The translations under genes and the position numbers were made by a program. This document shows, in pieces, positions 27,721 through 41,289 of a DNA stretch of 41,289 nt. Source of the DNA: Cochliopodium minus (lineage: Eukaryota > Discosea > Himatismenida > Cochliopodiidae). A model generated the notes under the pieces. That model made no database searches and was not told the origin of the DNA. It saw nothing but the letters and a program-made list of their open reading frames with translations. The stretch's first letter is position 1. Each line of letters opens with the position of its first letter. The stretch is taken from positions 2,781 to 44,069 of the forward strand of contig JAMYWO010000304.1 in assembly GCA_024220525.1 (NCBI GenBank), written 5' to 3'.

Positions 27721-29832
27721 TCATTCAATTTCTTTAATTTTTTCGAGCAAAATATTAATATTTTGTCTTCTATTTTGTAGTTGTGAAATGGCTTCTTCTA
27801 AAGAATTGAGTGTTTGTTGAAAATCAAAGAGGATGAATTCTTCAAAAGTTTTGAATTTCAATGAATTTTCGAGTTTCTTGGAATTTTCGATGAAATCTTT
27901 CTTTCTTTTTAACTTATTATGAGAATTTGATACATCCTCTAAAGAATCATCTTTCAACAAAACTTTCTTGAAAGAAACATCTCGATCAAACTTGTTAAGA
28001 AAAGAAATATCCAAGTCGAGAATCGCCTTCATGTTTTTTTGTTTGAGCAGTGAAAAAAGAGAAAGAGAAAATAAGGAAAGAGGTTCAATCACTCCAAAAA
28101 AGTTTAGAATGTAAGAACAGTTTAAATAAACGAAATTTTCATCACATCCTAAAAAAATTTTTTAAAAGGAATTTTTAAAAAATAATTATTTTGAAATAAT
28201 ATTAATCAAAATACTATTTTCAATTTTAATTAAACAGAGAAAGTATTTTATAATCATTTTTGTTTTACCTCCATGAACGAGCAGTTGGTTTGAATTTATT
28301 GGAATAGAAATATGGCAATCTCTCGCTTTTATGTCTCCTTCTATTTTGCATTTTTTCCATTCAAAATTTTCAAGGTTCAAGTAATGAATTTCGTTGAGAC
28401 TCCTTGCACCTGTCTCTGATCCTAAAGATAAATAAATAAATAATTGAATAAGTATTGTATTAAAAAAATACCTTTATCATCATATTTTTGATCCCAACCT
28501 TTTAAAAAATTAATAAATAAATAAATAATAAATTATTTAAAAGAATCTTTTTTTTTAAACCTCCAACAATAACCTTTACACAAGAAATTAAAATTAAAAA
28601 TAATTTGAATTTCAATGATTAAAGTACTGTAAAAAATTCACCATGTATTTTTGTAAAAGAATGTTTGCCTATTATTTTAAATAATTGAAATTTTTTTAAA
28701 AAATATTTAAAAAATGTTACAGTATGTCCAGCACATTTTTCTTAATTTAATAATTTTTTAAAAAATTTTATTTTAAAAAAATAAATTACGAGGATTGTTC
28801 TCTTCATTTTTCACTTCAAAATTTTTTATCCATTCCATATTTTTTAAATCTAAAATATGCAAGTCACTAAATACCCTGTACTTTGCTTCGTGAAATAAAA
28901 AAATAAAAATTAAAAAATAATAAAAAAAATGCTTATAATAAAATAAATTATATTTACTTCTCCCTCCATAGACAAACATTTTTTGATCATGTATTACAGC
29001 AGAATGGTAATATCTCTTGGTGGGTCCATTATTTAAGTTGTATTTCTGAAACAAAAGAGAAGATTTATCCAAAACTATTAATTCCTCGTTAATTATTTCT
29101 GTCCCACAAATATGCCCGCCATAAAAAACAATTTTTCCTTTTATAATTTTTTATAAAAAAAAATTTGTTTTTAAAGTTATTTTTTCATTGAAAATTTTTT
29201 ACCCTCTTCCTCCCACTCACATGCACTATGTCCTTGAATTGTTGGAAAGAAATCGTTTTTGTTTAATGTTTTTAATACAACTTTTTCCCATTTCATCTGT
29301 AAAATTTATTAAATAATATATTTTTTTATTTTTCGAATCAAACAGTTCAAATTTTATATACTTTGTCAATATTGAGGCAATTAAATTCATTCTTCTTTAA
29401 ATTTGGATCATGTCCTATTATTAGTATGCAGTTTTCATCTTTTTCATTGTTAATTAAATTTGCTGTAAACGAAGTTAAATTATTCGGTGCTACTCCTTCA
29501 ATTTTATATTTCATTTTGCTCCATTTGGATGTTTCTTTTTTTTTTTTTGCATGAATGAAAATATTTGTTTGGAAAATATTTAATTAAAAAAAAAAAAATC
29601 CCTACCGATTGAAAATACGTCAATTGAATGATCTATAAAATTTGATTAAACTTTCAATAATACTTTATTGATGAATATTTTACTTGCTATCACCAATATT
29701 TTTGATTCTGAACAGATTTTGAAAATAAATTTTTATTGATAAGGATTATTTTCATTTTTAATTACCTAATTTAATTGCATAATGTGCTCTTTTTCCTTCC
29801 ATTGTTTTATTGTTGATTAATTTTAACCACAT
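27721..29832 (-). CDS. Kelch-repeat protein with C-terminal coiled coil
   Basis: Twelve exons (29766-29832, 29605-29631, 29362-29534, 29203-29296, 28958-29137, 28790-28885, 28721-28740, 28642-28668, 28561-28573, 28472-28498, 28269-28421, 27721-28148) give 434 residues in one frame. Kelch blades are marked by 'GHSA...GG', 'YYHSAVI...MFVYGGR', 'CAGHTANILLQKYMVIVGGW' and 'RDCHISIPINSNQLLVHGG', each followed by an aromatic strand such as LHILDLKNMEWIKNF. The last 140 residues leave the propeller: a hydrophobic, Leu/Ser-rich stretch near the exon start, then a charged helix ending with FDFQQTLNSLEEAISQLQNR and a likely coiled coil. The role is unknown; such proteins are typically scaffolds. Several exons are 13-28 nt, and each is supported by GT-AG borders plus phase. 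The weakest point is the 13-nt exon 28561-28573. Confidence 0.8.
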
Positions 29833-30139
29833 CTTTTCTCTTTGTTATTTTTTTTTATATTTTTTTAATTTCGAAAACAAACATAAATACGTTATGATAA
29901 CAAAATTAAAATAATTATTTATTGTTTCTTTTATCAGTATTCCAAAGTTATTCTGTCAACTCTTTGTGTTGTTCTATTTTTTTTTTTTAATTTTGCATGA
30001 AAAAGCCATGTTAGTTTGGGAGAAGTACCTTTGCTTAATATAATCACTATTTCAAATTTTACACCAATATGATGGATTCCAAAAATCTTTTAGGTTATAT
30101 TAAACTATAAAACTATTGATATTTAAAAAAAAATTGAAA
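29833..30139. other. Divergent intergenic region, Kelch / parvulin genes
   Basis: About 300 bases of A/T-rich DNA between two divergent start codons. There are T runs near 29850-29870 and 29975-29990. No other feature is supported. Confidence 0.5.
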
Positions 30140-30603
30140 ATGTCTGAAGAAGAAGTTATTAGAGCCTCCCATATTCTAATCAAGAATGTCAAATCAAGAA
30201 ATCCATCCTCCCATAAAGAAAAGAGTAACCAAATCTAATTATCTTTGAGATATAAAAAAAATATTAATATTGCTTTATTAGAAATAACAAGATCTGAAGA
30301 AGAAGCAAGAAAGATACTCGAAAAATTGATTGAAAAAATAAAAGGTGGAACCTCATTTGAAGAATTAGCAAAAGAATATTCAGACTGCGGTTCATACAGA
30401 AATGGAGGAGATTTAGGTGAATTTGATTATGGTAATTGATTCAACAAAATTCATATAAAGAAAGAAAAAAATTTTTTTTTTTTTTATTAATAGGATCTAT
30501 GTTGCCTGAATTTTCAAAAGCAGCATTCAAATTAGAGGTTGGTGAAGTGTCTGGTATTGTAAAATCTGATTCAGGTTTACATATTATTAAAAGAACAGGT
30601 TAA
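30140..30603 (+). CDS. Parvulin-type peptidyl-prolyl isomerase, Pin1-like without WW domain
   Basis: Catalyses cis-trans isomerisation of prolyl bonds, in the Pin1 group preferentially after phospho-Ser/Thr. Model exons 30140-30224, 30282-30431 and 30494-30603 give 114 residues, just the isomerase domain. Diagnostic segments: RASHILIKNVKSRNPSSHKE (the Lys/Arg phosphate-binding loop), ITRSEEEARKIL, FEELAKEYSDCGSYRNGGDL with the active-site Cys, LGEFDYGSMLPEFSKAAF, and SDSGLHIIKRTG with the C-terminal His. Human Pin1 has two adjacent arginines in the loop; here the second is Asn. The lack of a WW domain matches plant Pin1At-type enzymes. No targeting signal is visible, so it is probably nuclear or cytosolic. 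Confidence 0.93.
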
Positions 30604-30804
30604 AAGATCTTATTCATTAAAGAAACCTATAGTATAAAAATATAAAATTTATGTTGAATATTGTAAAGTTGTGAAAATCAAATATACAAATTTGTTTATT
30701 TCAAATCTATCAAATGAAAATATGGAAAAAAGATTTTTTTTCAAACAAATAAAATATTAAAATGTTAAAATAATTATATTTTTTAGTTATTGAACAAAAA
30801 ACTA

Positions 30805-30878
30805 GCCTTACTAGCTCAGTTTGGTAGAGCATGCGACTTTTAATCGCAGGGTCGTGGGTTCGAGTCCCACGTAGGGCT
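30805..30878 (+). tRNA. tRNA-Lys (anticodon UUU)
   Basis: A complete intronless cloverleaf. The acceptor arms GCCTTAC and GTAGGGC pair over seven base pairs, including one G-U. The D arm (GCTC/GAGC) carries the A box TAGCTCAGTTTGGTAGAGC. The anticodon stem is TGCGA/TCGCA with loop CTTTTAA, giving anticodon TTT. The T arm is GTGGG/CCCAC with GGTTCGAGTCC as B box. CCA is not encoded. This tRNA class is a standard substrate for the U34 thiolation complex that includes the CTU2 encoded at 1307-3095. Confidence 0.97.
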
Positions 30879-30881
30879 TTA

Positions 30882-30888
30882 TTTTTTT
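30882..30888 (+). terminator. Pol III terminator of tRNA-Lys
   Basis: A run of seven T begins four bases after the discriminator base of the tRNA, matching the oligo-T stop used by RNA polymerase III. T runs are common in this A/T-rich DNA, so position is the main evidence. Confidence 0.7.
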
Positions 30889-31088
30889 ATTTTAAATCTT
30901 TTGTTAAAATTTTGATTTTGATTTGGATTTTTTTTTTTTTGAAAAATGATTGTTCAAACCAAGTTTACCTTTTTGAATCATGGGGATTTTCAAATATTGT
31001 TTTCAAATTTTTTTTTAATTTTCAACATTTTAAAAATAAAAATATTAAGGTTGGATATTCAAGAAAGAGGTTTTCAAAGATCAACAAA

Positions 31089-33381
31089 ATGAAGAATTTA
31101 TTGAAATCAAATATATTCAAAAAAGAATTTTTGAAAAAACCAAATTTCAACTTCAAATTAAAGTTTAATACCAAATATTATGTCACTCCCCATTTTACAG
31201 AAGTAACAATACCAAGGAAAACCTATTATTTCAATGGAAATGCTTTTAAAATCAAATATATAAGCAAAAATGGTAAATATATAGAATTTTTACTTTTTCC
31301 ATATCAATATATCAATCCTCCTCATATACTATCCAATAAAAAATATCTATAATTATAAATAGACATAGTGAAAGAAATACCCAGCATTTCATTTAGAGAT
31401 ATAAGATCAATAGGGAATCAAAGTAGACAAATATCACAGATATTGGTGAGAGATAAAGCAATAATAGTGATGATGGAATTCGTCAGGCTCATAATTCAAC
31501 CCAATAGCATAATCATCTTCAATGCAAACCATATAGCAGTTGAAAAGATGGTTGATCAATTAGTTTCTATCCTTAAAGATCAAAATTATAAAACCTATGA
31601 AAATGCTGTCTTGGATACTCTATTACAAGTAAAATTGATCAAAATAAAATATATTTTTTTTCAGAGAATAATTTTTTAATAATTAATATTTTCTTAAATG
31701 GAAGAATATTCTTCACGATTTTGAAAACAGATTGTCAGTTATGACTCCAATAGTAAATAAAATACTTGATAGTGTTAATCCAGGAAAGACAAACAGTTAT
31801 TATGATCCCCAAGCTGTAGTTAAACTTTTGCCCAGTAAAATAATTTTTTTTTTTTGAAGTAAAAAAAAAATTTAAAATTATTAATCAAATCAATTTTATA
31901 ATAGTGAACCAATCTCTTATAAAATTTAGTGTAAAATTTTTTTTTATCATTTTTTATTTATTTTTTTTAATTTTTTATTTTTTTTTTAAAAAAAAGAACG
32001 CAATGAATGAGTTTAAATCTGCTTTGGACAATTTACTCCAACAAGACATTGCCAGATTCTCTTTCGAAAACAAAGAAGACTCTTCTGTCATTCTCGAAGA
32101 AATCTTTGAAGATTCTTCTAAAAGAGCAGAAGAAATCCAAAATGGTACTTTAAATCTTAATTATTACTTTTTGTTCATTTTTATTTTTATTTTTTAATTT
32201 TTTATCAATTTTTTTTTTTTATCTTCAATTTTTTATTTCAGATTTTTTATCAATTTTTTTTTTTAAAGAGATAGGAGTACTTCAACAGTCCATAGCAACC
32301 ACAAAGGAGACATTGGAACTTTCTTTGGACTCCACTCGTAACTCTTTGCTCACTCTCAATCTCCAAATCAGTCTCTCCGCCCTCGCCTTTGCTTCTGCTT
32401 CGACTGTTGGTAAATAAAAAAAAACATAAAAATAATTTCAACAAAAAAAAAAATTTCAAACAAAAAAATTTCAAACAAAAAATTTTTTTTTTAAGAATAA
32501 ATGAAATGAAAATAAAAGAAATAATTTCAAATAAAAAAATAAAAATTTTATTTTTAAAGAAACATTTTGATTTATTATTATCAAAATAAATAAAAATGTC
32601 GTGTAAATAAAATAAATAAAAAATAATTAAAACGTTAAAATGTAAATAATATAATTTTTAAAATAATCCAATTAAAAAAAATAAATAAAAAAATTTGAAT
32701 AAAAAAAAATTTCAAATAAAATAAAAAAATTGACTGAAAATAGGGAGTATTTTTGGGATGAATGTTGTTCATGGATTGGAACAGTCGACACCTTTGACTT
32801 TCGCAGCAATTTTGTCAACCATTTTCTTGACTTCTTTCGCTCTTTACTTGTCCTTTTATCGTTTGTACCGCCACGCCACTCCTCAGTACACTCACCACAA
32901 AATTAAGAAGCATTTATTTGATGCTCAAAAATTTTTTGATAACATGAATTCCACCAGATATGTTACCTCTCTTTATGACCAGGTTTTTTATTATTTTTTA
33001 TTTTTTTTTTTATTTTTGTTTTTTAAAGATTAATTAATCTTATTTTTTTTTATATTTTCATTTTTTTTTATAATTTCATTTTTTTTAATAAATTTCATTT
33101 TTATTTTTTATTTTTTTTTTGTAACTTTTTTAATTTCATTTTTTTAAAATATTGTTTTTTTTAATTTTTTTTAAAAAAAGACAGATTTGAATGAATTCAA
33201 AAATTTGGTTAAAAGTATCACAGGTGAAGAAGTCAATGACACTTTTGTTGAAACCATTTTTAATAACTACGATCTTAACAAGGACAATTTTCTTGACAAA
33301 GAAGAACTAGAGAGGGCTATCAAAAATGGAGAGTTTGAACCAAAGTATCAAACAAATGAAGACACTTTATTTGATAAATAA
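31089..33381 (+). CDS. MRS2: MRS2-type mitochondrial Mg2+ channel with C-terminal EF-hand
   Basis: CorA/MRS2 family Mg2+ channel of the inner mitochondrial membrane, acting as a pentamer. Model exons: 31089-31272, 31363-31628, 31705-31834, 31905-31930, 31997-32144, 32269-32409, 32744-32982, 33181-33381; 444 residues. The start is basic and Asn/Phe/Lys-rich without acidic residues (MKNLLKSNIFKKEFLKKPNF), like a mitochondrial presequence. The soluble domain has SFRDIRSIGNQ and ILVRDKAIIVMMEFVRLII. TM1 ends in the family's invariant GMN (SIFGMNVVHGLEQ). TM2 is AAILSTIFLTSFALYLSFY, followed by basic RLYRHATP. Unlike standard MRS2, the last exon adds a tail with one canonical EF-hand loop, DLNKDNFLDKEE (ligands D1, N3, D5, D9, E12), between predicted helices. 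With both termini in the matrix, this loop would sense matrix Ca2+ or Mg2+ (inference). Its stop lies 37 bp from the convergent stop. Confidence 0.9.
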
Positions 33382-33418
33382 AAAAAGTTAAATAAAAATT
33401 TAAATTTAAATTTTTTTT

Positions 33419-34258
33419 TTAATTGTTTTCAATATTTTCGTTTGTTTCAAATTTTTCATTGTCATCATTATTGTTGTCATTCTCTTTTTTATTTTCATTG
33501 TTGTTTGGTTTTTTATGTTCAAGTAGGATTATTTTTCTGTCATTGTAAATCATTTTTGTTTTTTCATTTTCGTCTAGCTTCAAGTCTATGTCTTGTTCAA
33601 AAGTAATCTCCATTTCTGGAACATTTTTCAACATTCTATTTATTTGTTTTTTTGCTCCATTAAAACTTTTACTGAATTCTTTTTCAATTAAAACAAAAAA
33701 AAAATTAAGTTTCTTTTAAAATTTTAAAATTTTTTTTTACCAATGACCATTTTTTTACAATTTCTTTGTAATTGAAAAAATTTTTTCCATCTTTTTCAAA
33801 AAATATATTACAAAAAAAATTCTTCAATTAATAATAAAAAAAATAAAAAATTTTCTACCCAGGATCCAACATTTTCAAATCTAAACCAATAATGACAATG
33901 CTGTAATTTCCTTTTTCTACCTCAAATTCACCACAGTCTTGAAACCTTTCACCAATGTACTGTATATTTTCCTCTTTCCCACTTTCGAGCACAGGATCTA
34001 TTACGATCAAATTTACATCTTTTTCAACAAATTTTGCCAATGAATTTAATCCTCCTTCACATTAATTAATTTTTTTTTTTTGAACAATTTTTTAAATTTT
34101 TGATTATTTTTTAACCTCCTATTTCTATTATATTCTTTTCATCTCCCAATAAATTCAATGCTATTGTTTGCCTTTTTAATTTAAATAAATATTTCAAATG
34201 AATTTATTCAGATATACACAAATTTCCAATCCATTCTTTCTCTCATTGATATTATCAT
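33419..34258 (-). CDS. Small Rossmann methyltransferase-like protein
   Basis: Model exons 34218-34258, 34116-34171, 33859-34054, 33741-33790 and 33419-33678 give 200 residues if the first of three in-frame ATGs is used (the others are at 34246 and 34234). The centre reads like a class I S-adenosylmethionine fold: motif I KNIIEIGGGLNSLAKF, a following strand ending in an acidic residue (NLIVIDPVLE), and a motif-IV-like strand NYSIVIIGLDLKML. A late strand CKKMVIEFSKSF follows. The last 60 residues are Asn/Asp/Glu/Lys-rich. At about 130 folded residues it is short for a methyltransferase and lacks a recognisable substrate motif, so it may be a degenerate or accessory member. Substrate unknown. 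Start choice and the first exon are the least certain parts. Confidence 0.6.
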
Positions 34259-34535
34259 TTTACTTTGAAAAATTAGGAAAAATCATTTTGGGGTTTGATG
34301 GGAGATCAAATTAGGTGAGAAATTATAAAGAAAAAAAAAATTAGAGAAACTATTACCCTGACTGAGAATTGAGGAGAGAGAAGATATGAATATTTTTTAT
34401 TTACATATCTATTGATGGAAGAATTTATTTCATTCTTTATAAATGCTTTATCTTTTTTCATTTTTTTTTTTTTTTTTTTGAAATAAATTTAATAAAATTA
34501 ATTAAAATTAATAAAAATAATTAAAATTGAAAAAA

Positions 34536-35405
34536 TTAGAGATTTGAATGTGGAATATATTGGTAATCGGCTCTCCTTTTCTTTACATAATAGAAAACTG
34601 CCACAGCAGCAATGATGAAAAGGGAGCAAAAGAAAAGAATCAAAATAATCCAGCCTGCGGAGAATTTTTTAGAAAACTCAGAATAACATTTCTTGTAATC
34701 ATCATATTGCAAATATTGGGATGTACACAAAATTTTAGCGTTACAGTTTTTGTCATTTGGAGTGCAAGTCTTTACTTTTTTTGAATCTAAACAAAATAGA
34801 AAAAATGTAAAATAATATTAAAATAGAAAAATCGAAATAAATTATAAAATAAAATATAATGAATAAAAGTGAAAATGAAGATAAAATATTAAAATTTAAT
34901 AAATTTTAGATTGAAAATAATTAAAATTAAAATAAGAAAAGTTTATAAAAGTTTGAAAAAATAAAATTAAAATTAAATTTAAATGTTAAAATAATATTTT
35001 TTTTAACCAGCAACACTTTTTGAACTGTAAATGGAAGACAAGGTAGTATTAGTGTGCATCTTATTAACTAAAGAAGCGACATTGGAGCTAGTGAAAGCTT
35101 GTAGGTTGTACTCTGTAACAAATGAAGAGTTTTTATACAAAGGTTCCCCTTAACATAAAAAAATAAAAAAAAAGCGATTTTAAAAAATAAAAAAACAAAA
35201 AATAAAAAATAAAAAATTTTATACAAGTTAAAGAATTTAAACTTCCATTTCCTTTTTCAATTTTGAGAACGTAATCGACCCAATCTACCACTTTGAGAGA
35301 ATCAGAATCGAAATAGTTTACTCTGAAAGAAGGATTATTGTTGTAAATTGGAGACAAACTTCCACTCAATCCCTGAAAGTATGTCCCTGGTACCAGTGGT
35401 CTCAT
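34536..35405 (-). CDS. Acid-sphingomyelinase-like phosphodiesterase, C-terminal part only
   Basis: Three exons (35225-35405, 35008-35148, 34536-34786) encode 190 residues that match only the C-terminal third of an acid-sphingomyelinase-like (SMPDL) metallophosphoesterase. They begin MRPLVPGTYFQGLSGSLSPI, with YNNNPSFRVNYFD as the family's 'NPSFR' signature, continue to a Cys-rich stretch (TCTPNDKNCNAKILC) and end in a transmembrane anchor (AGWIILILFFCSLFIIAAVAVF) plus a basic cytoplasmic tail. The first ATG is probably an internal Met: the exon starts right at a 3' splice site in phase 0 and no catalytic domain precedes it. Upstream on this strand lie two exons of an ABC transporter instead. 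The missing N-terminal part matches the plus-strand gene at 37667-39469, which ends in phase 0. The locus is therefore split by a rearrangement or misassembly. Confidence 0.85.
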
Positions 35406-35503
35406 CTAGAAAAAATTAAAAAAATTGAAATGAACTTCAAATTAAATTCATTAATTTTAAAAGATAAAAAATCGTTGAAATTTTAATACATTAAACGTTA
35501 TAC
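35406..35503. other. Breakpoint zone joining ABC-transporter and phosphodiesterase sequence
   Basis: Between the 3' splice site of the phosphodiesterase exon (35406-35407) and the 5' splice site of the ABCB exon (35502-35503) lies one intron-like A/T-rich stretch. Its right part (about 35465-35503) resembles intron 2 of the other ABCB copy (about 40920-40946). The left part does not. The junction is therefore near 35406-35465. The phases on either side (1 and 0) do not match, so splicing across it would not give a fused protein. Confidence 0.7.
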
Positions 35504-35850
35504 CTGGTAATAAGACTCCATTTCCTATTGCCAGTAAGGATCCAATCACCATTAATGGTATTTTGTTTCTTTATTTTGATTGAATAAAGATTAGTTTGAT
35601 TTTATAAAAAATTTCAATATTAAAAAAGAATATTGAAAGATTAATTGAGAGTGTATTAAGTGTTTAAATGTCAGAATTTGTTAATGTTTTTGATAGAATT
35701 TTCCATTTTGTTGATTATTTTCCATTTTTTTTTACCTATCGGCAAAAGATAATAATTTAAACATTGATACTGGTTTTTCTTGTGGTTCTTTCTTCTTTTT
35801 CTTCTCTTTACATTTTTGAAGGCAAGAAGTTTTTGAACTCATTTTTTATT
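35465..35850 (-). repeat. Segmental duplicate, copy 1 (ABCB 5' end)
   Basis: Nearly the same sequence as 40920-41289 in the same orientation, including exon 1, intron 1, exon 2 and the start of intron 2. By eye, intron 1 differs at roughly 5% of positions and exon 2 at about 20%. Similarity stops at about 35465 on the left and cannot be followed on the right because the window ends at copy 2. Confidence 0.85.
35504..35842 (-). pseudogene. ABCB transporter fragment (first two exons of a paralog)
   Basis: Two exons (35736-35842 and 35504-35568) encode the start of an ABCB/MDR-type half or full transporter. They cover a very basic leader (MSSKTSCLQKCKEKKKKKEP), then LLSFADRNKIPLMVIGSLLA, the first transmembrane segment of the family, ending AIGNGVLLPG. 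The rest of the gene is absent here; what follows is phosphodiesterase sequence on the same strand. The exon lengths (107 and 65 nt) and intron 1 are nearly the same as in the copy at 39643-41284. It may be a true truncated copy or the displaced 5' end of a complete second gene whose remainder is missing from the assembly. Confidence 0.8.
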
Positions 35851-36423
35851 TATTTATTTATTTATTTTTTTCATAATTTAATTTATCTTGTTAATTTTCT
35901 TTTGAGAATATTTGGAAAAGGAAATCGAATTTTATTTTTCGATTTTTCAAATATTTTCAATTAGGGTGATGAGTTTCAAAAAAAAGTTCAATTTGGATGA
36001 AAAGCTGTGACTAAATTTGAGGATCTTTCATTAAATTTAAAATTGTTTCTGAGGAACTTGAATTTGATCTTCCATTTTGAGGAACTTTATTTGAGGGAGT
36101 ATTTTCATTTGTTAAAAAAAAAGTTTAAAGAAGATTAATAGAAAAACGTGTCAAAAGTACAATTTAATTTTACAAAGAAAAAGATAATTTAAGATTTAAT
36201 TGTTCAAAGAGTTCAAACTCTTTGGATCTTTGAAAAGAAGTTCTAGATTATTATTAAAGAGTTAGTTAATTTTCTAAATTTTTCAAATACATATAAAAAG
36301 GAAAGAAAAAGTCCATACTATGAGTTAGAATCTTTAATTAGATTGGAATGCTTTTGGAAATTTATTTACAAAAAAAATTCAAATTATTTTGTTTCAGTTT
36401 TTTGATAAAATAAAAAAAAAAAA
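35843..36423. other. Divergent intergenic region, ABCB fragment / EF-Ts
   Basis: About 580 bases, A/T-rich. It contains a TTTA-type short tandem stretch near 35846-35868 and no supportable coding exon. It presumably holds the promoter of the EF-Ts gene on the right and that of the ABCB copy on the left. Confidence 0.5.
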
Positions 36424-37543
36424 ATGAAATTCTCCAACATCAAATTAAAATCCTCCAATTTATTCAACAAAATATCACAAAATAATACCTTCTCAACCAA
36501 ATTAAATGGGATAAATAAGAAGAATAACATTAACTTTAGATTTTATTCTTTAGAAAAAGTATCCATGGAAGATATTAAGGCAGTCAGAAAAGTAACTGGT
36601 GCAGGAATATCTGATTGTAGAGAAGCATTAGTAAAAACAAAGAATAAAGTACAAGATGCCATAAATTTATTGGGAGAAAAAGCAATCAATGCTGAAATAA
36701 AAAAATCAGCAAGTAGCAGTAAAGAAGGTCAAATCATCTTAAAAACAGAAAATGATGAGAAAGGTGGATTAGGGGTAAAAAAAAAAATATATACCTTTGA
36801 TAATTTTTATTGAACACATTCATATATAATATAAGAGATCTATAAATTTGGATCTTTAAATATTATTCATATTTTATCATATTCCTTATTAAACATATTT
36901 AATAAAGGTAATATTTGAAATAATGTGCGAAACAGATTTTGCAGCAAAATCCAATCCATTTGTTGAATGGTCCAAAATGATCAATGAAAGTGGATTTGAA
37001 TTGCACAAATCAAATGAATTGGGATTGACAGAATCAACCCTCGCAACCAACAAACTACAAGATCAAGATCTCCTCAAAGATTCAATCAAAAAAGTGACAG
37101 CAAAAATAGGAGAAAGAATAACGATAAGAAGATTGGGATCAATCAAAGAAGAAAATGGAGTGGTATGTGGATTCTTACATGCACCTAATAAAGTAGCAAA
37201 AGCAGGAGCAATTGTTTCTTTGAAATCAAATACACCTTACCGCCAAAAATTGCAAAGATTAGGAGAAGAATTGGCTGTCCATATCACTGCTTTCAATCCT
37301 AAATATCTCCGTCGTGAAGATGTACCTGCAGGAGAGAATGTGGATGATGAAGATATTTTGTTCTTGCAAGATTTTGAAGGAGGCAAAACTTTTGGAGATT
37401 ATCTCGCTCGTACTATCAAGAAGGATTTCCGCAAAGAGAATATTGAGGTTGCTTCTTATTATCGTTTTGGTACTGGTGAGGATTTGGAAGAGAACCAGAT
37501 TGTTTTGCTCAAGAGTGAAAACAAAGAATCTTTTGGTTTTTAA
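36424..37543 (+). CDS. TSFM: Mitochondrial translation elongation factor Ts
   Basis: EF-Ts is the nucleotide exchange factor for mitochondrial EF-Tu. Model exons 36424-36774 and 36908-37543 give 328 residues. The first 45 residues are basic, Asn/Ser-rich and free of acidic residues (MKFSNIKLKSSNLFNKISQN), fitting a mitochondrial presequence. The UBA-like N-terminal domain follows: MEDIKAVRKVTGAGISDCRE ... LVKTKNKVQDAINLLGEKA. The core has the diagnostic MCETDFAAKSNPFVEW (the CETDF motif), then KVTAKIGERITIRRL, HAPNKVAKAGAIVSL, LAVHITAFNPKYL, and the C-terminal FLQDFEGGKTFGDYL. Its presence implies an organelle that still translates, so the organism is not one of the genome-less hydrogenosome or mitosome lineages. 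Confidence 0.94.
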
Positions 37544-37666
37544 AAAAAAAATTGAGAGGTGTTTGTTCACATTGGGTTGTTCGATTTGAGAAACACCACT
37601 CCCTTTTTTATTATAAAATTAAAACAATATTTATTTTGGAATTAAAATTGAAAAATATATAAAAAA

Positions 37667-39469
37667 ATGAAAGCCACATTTTTCAAATTTCTTCCTTTTC
37701 TCTTCATCTTTTTTGTTATGAATGATGCTTCCACACTCAAATATTTATCTTTTTCCGATTTGCATTATGGTTTGAATAATTTAAAACTAATTTCAATTGA
37801 ATTCAAAACTAATGAAAATCAAAAAACAGATCCATTTTATGGTAAAGATATTATAATTAGATTCTAATTTTAGATATGATATGATAACTGAAATATAATT
37901 AGGTGTTGCTGGGAATAATACTTGCAAAGGTGGATATATTTTTAACTTTCTGAATAGATCAATTAAATAAAATATTTGATAGGAGCAAAAATAGATGGAT
38001 ATCCTTTATATGGATGTGATTCCTCATTTTGGCTTATAATGTCAATGTTTCAAAAAATGGGAGTAAATATTTTTTTTTTTGAATAATTTTTAATTAATTA
38101 AAAGAAAAAAAAAACAAAAACACAAAGGAAGTAGCAAGTGATTCTGAATTTGCAATATTTTGCGGAGATATACAAAGACATCAAATCGTATCGAACAATG
38201 TAGCGGGAGTATTCAAATCAATTTTAGAAACAGTCCAAAATCAATTGGAATTAACTTTTCCTTTCAGCAGGTTTCCTGGTAAAAAAAAAAAAAAAAAAAA
38301 ATAAAAAATAAAATAAAAAAAATAAAATAAAAAATTTGAAATCAATAATTTGAACTAAAAATTAAAAATAAAAGAAATTTAAATTGAACAATTTTTTTTT
38401 TTACATTAAAGCACATTTAAATTCACCTTTGTTCGCACTTGGAAATAATGGTAACCTAAAAAATAAAACCTTTTCTCGCACACTAATTTTCTTTTTTTTT
38501 AGATTTATATCCAAGATACCCTGCTCCACCAGAATCAGGATTTATAACGTGGTTGGATCCAATGCTTACTCAATGGTTAAAAAATGATATGTTATTTATT
38601 TATTTATTCAATCATTTGTTTATTCAATCTTTTCTTTATTTGTTTAATTATTTCTTTATTTTTTAATTTTAATTTTCTTGAAATTTAACAGGACATCCAT
38701 TTCTTTGTTGGATCAAGACAATTTACTTCAATTCAAAAAAACAGGATGTTATTCTTCTTTAAGTAATACCATCCCTAATCTACGTTTTATAGTTTTACAC
38801 GTAAATTTTTTTTCATTTTTCATTTTTATTTTTTATTTTTTTAATTATTTTTATTTTTTATTTTTTTTATTTTTTTTATTTTTATTTTTTATTTTTTCAT
38901 TTTTTTATTTTTTTTATTTACTAAAAGACAAATTATTGGTATGATGGAAATTCTAATACAAAAAATATGGTTGATCCATTAAATATTTTTCAATGGTTGA
39001 ATTCTACTTTGGCTTCTGCTAAACTCAATTTCCAAAAAGTTTGGATCATAGGTCTAAAAAAAAAATTAAAAATTAAAAATTAAATAATAAAAAAATTAAA
39101 CAATAAAAAATATTTAAAAATAAATAAAAAATAAAAAATCAAATAAAAATTAAAAAATAAAAAATAATATTTCATTTGAAAATTAAAGGACATATTCCTC
39201 CTGGTGTATCTGGTAATTTAAAATTAAAAAAAAATTCTTATTTTTTTTCAATCTTTTTTTAAAACTTTTTTTTGTTGATGAAGAATATCAAGGAATTAGA
39301 TCATGGCATGACCAATTTTTACAAAAATGGCTTCAAATAGTTCCACCTTTTGTCTCTGATGGTAAAAAATATTGCATTCACAAAACTTCCCTCAAAAAAT
39401 AATTTAAATCTTAAAAACTAAATAGGAACTATCACCAATTCTTTATTTGGACATGAGCACATTATTGCT
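37667..39469 (+). CDS. Acid-sphingomyelinase-like phosphodiesterase, N-terminal and catalytic part
   Basis: Secreted or lysosomal binuclear metallophosphoesterase of the SMPDL type. Eleven exons (37667-37841, 37903-37929, 37983-38062, 38128-38278, 38412-38450, 38503-38590, 38692-38800, 38928-39051, 39189-39212, 39284-39361, 39426-39469) give 313 residues in one frame. A signal peptide is evident (MKATFFKFLPFLFIFFVMND). Metal and catalytic motifs are SFSDLHYG, FCGDIQRHQ, ALGNNDLYP, GHIPPGVS and FGHEH (in place of the usual GHxH). DPFYGVAGNN and a Cys-containing CKGAKIDGYPLYGCDSSFW are also family-like. The gene is incomplete: after FGHEHIIA a 5' splice site (phase 0) opens into T-rich DNA and the single unknown base at 39642, beyond which lies antisense ABCB sequence. 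The missing C-terminus matches the minus-strand exons at 34536-35405. Confidence 0.88.
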
Positions 39470-39641
39470 GTAAATTAATATTTTGTTCTTCATTTTTTAT
39501 TTTATTTATTTTTTATATTACATTTTTTTATTTTTTTAATATTATTTTTATTCTTTAAAATATTATTTTTTATTTTTTATTTTTTATTTTTTATTTTTAT
39601 TTCTATTTTTTATTTTTTATTTTTTATTTTTTATTTTTTAT
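39470..39641. repeat. T-rich low-complexity stretch ending at an unknown base
   Basis: A 170-base intron-like segment dominated by TTTTTTAT-like units (clearest at 39560-39641). It runs directly into the single n at 39642. On the other side, composition flips to A-rich with AAAAAATA units (39675-39800). Such mirrored low-complexity arms around an unresolved base are typical of a weak assembly join. Confidence 0.8.
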
Positions 39642-39642
39642 N

Positions 39643-41284
39643 AAGTCCGAAACCTGCTGCACTGATAAACAAATTATAAAAAAATAAAAAGTAATAAATA
39701 AAAAAATGAAAATAAAAAAATAAAAAATAAATATTTTAAAAAATGAAAAAAAAAATTTAATAAAAAAAAGAAATGAAAAAAATAAAAAATAAAAAAAAAA
39801 ACCTTAAATGAGATTTCTTTTTTCCTTTTTCATAGAATTGGTTTAACAAATCAGAGTATCTTCTGAATGCTTCCTTTTCCCAAACGAAAGAATAAACAGT
39901 TCTGATTCCTGAAATGGTGTCTGTTGATAAAGTAGATGCTATCGATTTTACTCTAATTTACAAACAAAAATTATAAAAATCAAAAAGTAAATAATAAAAA
40001 AATTTAAAAAAATTAAGATTTAAATTAAAAATATTTAAAAATTAAAATCAAAGATTTAAACAAGAAATATTTAAAAATAAAGATTATTTATAAAGAAAGT
40101 ACTCTTGTTGTGACTGAGCACCACTCTTGATAAATTTCATTTGAAGAGCAGAAGCAATCACCATGGCAGGACTCATGGATATCAATACCAAGCTGAGTTT
40201 CCAACCATAAATCTAAAGAAAATAAAAATAAAAAAAAACAAATAATCAAAAAATTGTTCATATTCAAATAATTTTTTACAAACGCAATGATAATACCTGC
40301 GATGGCTTGAGACATGAATATAAAATAAGAAGCAATTTTATCTCCAACTTTTTTTGTGATTAAATTAAAATTAAAATCAATTTAAATATTTAAATATTTA
40401 AATATATAAAAAACCTCCACTTCCTATTACTGCAATATCAGATGAAAGATGATTTGTTATTTCTCCTGTGGAATGTCTATCAAAAAAAGAAATTTCTTGG
40501 GAGATCAAAGATCTGAATAGTTTTGTTGTAATATTCTTGATTATATTTTCTCCTACGATACCCCAACAAGCCAAAGCACCATAAGCTGATTTAAAAAAGA
40601 AAATTAAATTTCAATAAATTAATTTTTGAACTTTAAATGATTTTTGATAAATTGAATATTCAAAATTAATTCAATTCAAGAAATATGCAACTGAGAAGAA
40701 ACTTAATTGTAACTTTAAATTCTTTTAAATTTGGTAATTTTCTTTACCCAATAAAAAATTTCCCACTCCCAATCCCACAAAAGCTCCTGCTATTTTGGAT
40801 AAAGAACTATCTAATTGGGCTCCCGTTTGAGTGAAGAGAATGTTGAATAATTGTCCAAATACAATTGAAAATCCTGATTATTTAATTGTTTTATTTGAGG
40901 GTGGAATTAAAAAATCGTTAAAATTTTAATACATTTAAAGTATTACCTGGAAACATCACCCCATTTCCTATTGCAGAAAGAGTTCCAATAACCATTAATG
41001 GTATTTTGTTTCTTTATTTTGATTGAATAAAGATTAGTTGGATGTTATAAAAAATTTCAATATTAAAAAGGTATTTTGAAAGATTAATTGAGAGTGTATT
41101 AAGTGTTTAAATGTCAGAATTTGTTAATATTTTTGATAGAATTTTCCATTTTTGTTTATTATTTTCCATTTTTTTACCTATCGGCAAAAGATAATAATTT
41201 TAACATAGGTATTGGTTTTTCTTGTGGTTCTTTCTTCTTTTTCTTCTCTTTACATTTTTGAAGGCAAGAAGTTTTTGAACTCAT
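39643..41284 (-). CDS. ABCB/MDR-type transporter, N-terminal transmembrane domain (3' part missing)
   Basis: Membrane exporter of the ABCB family. Exons 41178-41284, 40947-41011, 40748-40873, 40415-40585, 40280-40347, 40103-40212, 39803-39952 and 39643-39661 encode about 272 residues of the first TMD. They contain a poly-Lys leader, LLSFADRNKIPLMVIGTLSA for TM1, the loop ILFTQTGAQLD, and the classical ABCB coupling segment RSLISQEISFFDRHSTGEIT (family pattern LLxQDIxxFDxxxTGEL) with HLSSDIAVI. Further on come IYGWKLSLVLISMSPAMV (TM4 region) and STDTISGIRTVYSFVWEKEA. The last visible exon starts SAAGFGL and is cut by the n at 39642, so no nucleotide-binding domain is present. Exon borders match the fragment at 35504-35842 where they overlap. 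The start ATG lies 5 bases from the window end, so no promoter is visible. Confidence 0.88.
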
Positions 41285-41289
41285 TTTTT
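40920..41289 (-). repeat. Segmental duplicate, copy 2 (ABCB 5' end)
   Basis: Partner of 35465-35850 in direct orientation. It includes the start codon region, exon 1 (107 nt), intron 1, exon 2 (65 nt) and about 30 nt of intron 2. The copy continues unbroken into the downstream ABCB exons here, so this is the more complete member. Confidence 0.85.

Follow-up and report, generated by a model that had tools for sequence, protein, structure and literature searches.

A phosphodiesterase gene in two opposite-strand halves of a Cochliopodium minus contig: a probable assembly artefact

Introduction

The closest described relatives of the gene considered here are the phosphodiesterases SMPDL3A and SMPDL3B. 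The metallophosphoesterase motifs and the order of the parts are common to these proteins and the present gene, and the C-terminal region is weakly similar. The gene differs from them in having a C-terminal hydrophobic stretch and a tail (read by eye), in the motif GNND (38441-38505) where the solved chains have GNHD, and in lying on two strands of the assembly. Gene models that have been cleaved in draft assemblies provide a second comparison. In a draft chimpanzee assembly, the cause of an extra gene was determined for 1,693 families, and in 1,279 of these it was gene cleavage (PMC4256071). Such models consist of complementary, non-overlapping gene parts split at a gap, which is also the situation here; the difference is that in the present case one scaffold carries both parts, in opposite orientation. 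A third comparison comes from Giardia, in which split nuclear genes are reported to be joined by trans-splicing (PMC4006730, PMC8494341). Those genes and ours alike consist of two parts whose broken ends carry normal splice sites, whereas here the pairing between the flanks is ordinary when set against A/T-matched sequence, residues are missing at the join and there is an assembly gap at the break.

Below, we describe the locus within a window of 41,289 nucleotides, by which is meant the whole stretch of DNA that was analysed (positions 2781-44069 of contig JAMYWO010000304.1, assembly GCA_024220525.1). The contig stops at 44,069, and thus the end of the window is also the end of the contig. 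We conclude that the split is very probably an artefact of assembly, and that the organism most likely has one intact phosphodiesterase gene beside the gene for elongation factor Ts (EF-Ts). The features on which the argument depends are as follows.

34536..35405, minus strand: C-terminal half of the phosphodiesterase (C-half); 3 exons, 185 aa; splice model, weak ASMase_C and SMPDL3B matches
35459..35470: junction of a phosphodiesterase intron and intron 2 of the ABC transporter; A/T-rich and free of N; proposed site of a misjoin
35465..35847, minus strand: ABC transporter gene, 5' end; comprises exons 1-2 and the first part of intron 2, interrupted at 35465; 92% identity to 40908-41289
36424..37543, plus strand: EF-Ts gene; two exons, bounds by eye; Pfam EF_TS E 2.1e-24
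37667..39469, plus strand: N-terminal half of the phosphodiesterase (N-half); 11 exons, 313 aa; splice model, PDB matches, Pfam
39481..39641: TTTTATT tandem array; 161 bp, abutting the gap; the N-half runs into it
39642: single N, the only one in the window; read as an assembly gap
39643..41289, minus strand: terminal piece; 1,647 bp, encodes the N-terminal portion of an ABC transporter that breaks off at 39643

The two halves of the phosphodiesterase gene

Both halves were recovered by sequence and by a splice model, in agreement with the initial annotation, which had described a gene in two opposite-strand parts with matching phase-0 splice sites. In the model, the 11 exons of the N-half give 313 codons without a stop. 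The N-terminus is hydrophobic, the metallophosphoesterase motifs run up to FGHEH, and the last residues, FGHEHIIA, are followed by a phase-0 donor. The C-half is preceded by a phase-0 acceptor and comprises 185 codons in exons 35405-35243, 35148-35008 and 34786-34536; its content is, in order, an ASMase_C-like region, a hydrophobic stretch that is read by eye as a putative membrane anchor, and a short tail. All 14 model exons are open, such that no decay is visible in either half. The introns are GT-AG in 12 cases out of 12, a result that is partly built in because the splice sites were chosen by eye as being GT-AG and leaving the frame open.

The family of the N-half can be read from several matches. 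Twelve distinct PDB sequences were found at E <= 0.001, the best being SMPDL3A (1.5e-22), and a PDB sequence search gave a best E of 8.6e-7 against sphingomyelin phosphodiesterase chains. The Pfam Metallophos match has an E of 2.1e-4 and, at 22.2 bits, lies above its cut-off of 21.5. From these similarities, the N-half is predicted to encode a metallophosphoesterase catalytic domain related to SMPDL3 and SMPD1, and the whole gene most likely specifies an acid-sphingomyelinase-like phosphodiesterase. The C-half can be assigned to the family weakly. It matches ASMase_C under the cut-off (E 0.0032, 17.9 bits versus 23.7), ABC2_membrane_3 gives a slightly better E (0.0022) that is likewise under its own cut-off, and residues 23-137 match SMPDL3B with an E of 0.08. 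There is also 39% identity across 41 residues to a paralog in the same genome (contig C217).

It had been proposed that the two halves fit together perfectly and that the C-half is exactly the missing C-terminal third. The C-half does appear to be the C-terminal region, at the weak level of assignment just given; the exactness is not borne out by residue counts between conserved motifs. In the SMPDL3B chain 9k2e, residue 311 of the N-half corresponds to 262 and residue 23 of the C-half to 300; the chain has 38 positions over this interval and the two halves, set end to end, have 25, so that 13 are lacking. From HTH to SLSPI, the paralog has 30 residues and the halves have 18, which leaves them 12 short. 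In a forced global alignment with the paralog, the HEH and HTH motifs were not matched to each other, and no gap was placed at the join. It follows from the counts that some 12-13 residues are probably absent after the last catalytic GHxH motif, at the join of the halves, and hence that about 36-39 nt are probably missing there; a short exon of this size is predicted to lie between FGHEHIIA and the MRPLVPG of the C-half.

The break sites and the ABC-transporter duplicate

The initial annotation took the inverted segment to run from about 35.4 kb to 39642. The inverted placement remains the best reading, and the left break is better put at 35465, where homology to the ABC transporter starts, than at 35405. 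At 35465, within ABC intron 2, the homology to the second ABC copy stops, and the phosphodiesterase exon starts 59 bases further on. The right end, 39642, is the lone N itself; neither the end of the contig at 41289 nor the direct duplication of ABC sequence had been remarked upon.

The terminal piece beyond the N matches Pfam ABC_membrane with an E of 5.4e-48 and has its 5' end at the end of the contig. Its outer 382 bases (40908-41289) repeat 35465-35847 at 92% identity and in the same orientation. When the ABC 5' segment was used to search the assembly, 57 matches were found, of which two are the two copies and 55 are short, spanning at most 169 query bases and falling for the most part in a stretch of low complexity. 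One gapped alignment of the copies, in which the intron bounds are approximate, gave 4 substitutions in 111 columns upstream and in exon 1, 7 in 167 columns (with 3 gap columns) in intron 1, 8 in 68 columns (with 2 gap columns) in exon 2, and 5 in 39 columns in intron 2; without gaps, 13 of 65 exon 2 bases differ. From this pattern, the copies are probably divergent alleles or paralogs rather than one sequence read twice. They diverge more in exon 2 than in intron 1, as if one copy had been partly homogenised. Searches of the assembly for the rest of the ABC gene, among them searches with ABC_membrane, ABC_tran and a generic probe, gave no clear continuation among the candidates scored, which in two of the searches were 40 out of 1674 and 19 out of 145. 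A working fusion of the ABC transporter to the phosphodiesterase was considered and rejected, as it would be out of frame, with phase 1 at the end of ABC exon 2 against phase 0 at the start of the phosphodiesterase exon (by eye).

In some scaffolders, a lone n may mark a negative gap; passages of PMC8110574 did not document this meaning. For comparison, lone Ns were sought in 75 loci totalling 223,605 bases, a set in which overlaps are counted twice and many loci had been selected via A/T-rich matches. These contain six further distinct lone-N sites, together with N runs of 2,780, 1,336 (to the end of the locus) and 296. None of the six has a duplicate across the gap within flanks of 275-2,865 bases per side, and the ORFs around them gave no clear gene order. 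Contig positions 1-2780, directly before the window, are 2,780 Ns, either masked or withheld.

Copies elsewhere in the genome

Searches for further copies covered the assembly of 44.65 Mb in 598 contigs. The N-half gave eight matches, seven of them in its own contig and the eighth the paralog (35% identity, 55 query residues covered), and all three matches to the C-half lie in its own contig; the search thus brought up no further close copy of either half. With EF-Ts DNA as the query, a single full match was obtained, along with two hits shorter than 100 bases. No other arrangement of the locus, with EF-Ts or either half in a different order, was found in the assembly. In the paralog (locus L018), the matches to the two parts share a strand and are separated by 210 bp; residues 242-304 of the N-half match 1501-1683 and residues 13-53 of the C-half match 1893-2015. 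It also has GNND, in common with the phosphodiesterase, where the solved SMPDL3 chains have GNHD.

Misassembly and its alternatives

Two points are inferred: that the assembly and not the genome is at fault, and the manner in which scaffolding failed. According to this scheme, 35465-39641 would have been placed backwards in the draft. Its right end would lie inside the intron that contains the TTTTATT array, where the assembly broke, and its left end would have been misjoined, within A/T-rich intronic sequence, to the other side of the phosphodiesterase gene. The sequence for about 12-13 residues would have been lost at the break; the intron region in which the A/T-rich break lies would have room for the missing short exon. 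The 1.6-kb ABC piece may then have been attached past the lone N, misoriented or misplaced, perhaps drawn there by the resemblance of its 5' end to the ABC 5' end at 35465-35847. Judged from the coordinates, turning 35465-39641 around would make the phosphodiesterase collinear on the minus strand; turning 39643-41289 around in place as well would bring the ABC 5' end to meet an ABC body in the right direction.

The initial annotation had named a polymorphism or a misassembly as the source of the inverted segment. The inverted placement is indeed the best reading, and the setting favours misassembly over polymorphism, because the array is followed by a lone N, the contig ends in a short terminal piece, a duplicate with 92% identity lies across the gap, and neither half is visibly decayed. 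Misassembly is also supported by the deficit of 12-13 residues, which fits sequence lost at a gap, and by the ABC repeats being direct, since direct repeats are not of the kind that mediates inversions. Several observations count against it. The 35465 join is free of N, and at only 92% identity the ABC duplicate cannot simply be one haploid locus whose overlap was left unmerged. The remainder of the ABC gene was not found in the searches, the six further lone-N sites lack a duplicate within the flanks compared, and a real inversion that was very recent or heterozygous would look alike. Such an inversion would have broken the phosphodiesterase intron and ABC intron 2, and the terminal piece would derive from the other arrangement or from another ABC copy. 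It would be expected to give a join without N at 35465, as the product of inversion between two introns, and two arrangements or copies might well be about 8% apart in their ABC 5' ends, as is observed. We nevertheless consider it unlikely. Neither half has visibly decayed, no rearranged second copy of EF-Ts or of the phosphodiesterase halves was found in the assembly, and no second ABC body was found in searches of which one scored 40 of 1674 candidates. The other break is the lone N at 39642. Among the 25 of 75 inverted-repeat pairs listed for 28000-41289 (at least 50 nt), moreover, none is more than 85% complementary, and those inspected are A/T-rich and of low complexity. A real inversion would amount to a rearrangement that broke the gene recently and has so far left both halves intact.

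Two paralogs that have each decayed, or trans-splicing of a truly split gene, are poorly supported by comparison with misassembly. The complementary loss of a half from each of two paralogs, raised as an alternative at the outset, has in its favour that the genome does contain a paralog, with 35% identity over 55 query residues, yet it is very improbable: both halves are open and spliceable and end or start near the same position in the protein, the search for separate copies elsewhere in the assembly yielded no second close copy of either, the paralog has its two parts on one strand, and complementary loss at one place would have to have occurred twice. Even less probable is a gene whose two transcripts are joined in trans. 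A phase-0 donor and acceptor are present at the broken ends, as in the Giardia genes, and the pairing between the flanks is reached by only 8 of 200 dinucleotide shuffles with 60-nt flanks and by 6 of 200 with 180-nt flanks. When the comparison is instead with A/T-matched sequence from the window, however, 189 of 400 (60 nt) and 40 of 150 (180 nt) pair as strongly or more so; one flank ends at the lone N, and the product would be about 12-13 residues short of complete. A combined scheme, in which a real inversion is accompanied by trans-splicing of the opposite-strand transcripts and a third tiny exon supplies the missing residues, is likewise very improbable. If the split is an artefact of assembly, as we favour, it matters for annotation only, and the phosphodiesterase and ABC models should not be taken as evidence of pseudogenes, a gene fusion or an inversion.

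Neighbouring genes

The EF-Ts gene lies between the two phosphodiesterase halves, inside the segment that is read as inverted. By its Pfam match it lies on the plus strand; the initial annotation had likewise placed it within this segment. Further upstream in the window, ten ORFs in 4037-31676 were scanned with Pfam, two of them without a match. The others include a TATA-binding protein, a RhoGEF, a nucleotidyltransferase (MTPAP-like) and a C2-domain protein, as well as RPN2, ankyrin, Kelch and MRS2-like proteins. A tRNA-Lys (TTT) gene is located at 30804-30879.
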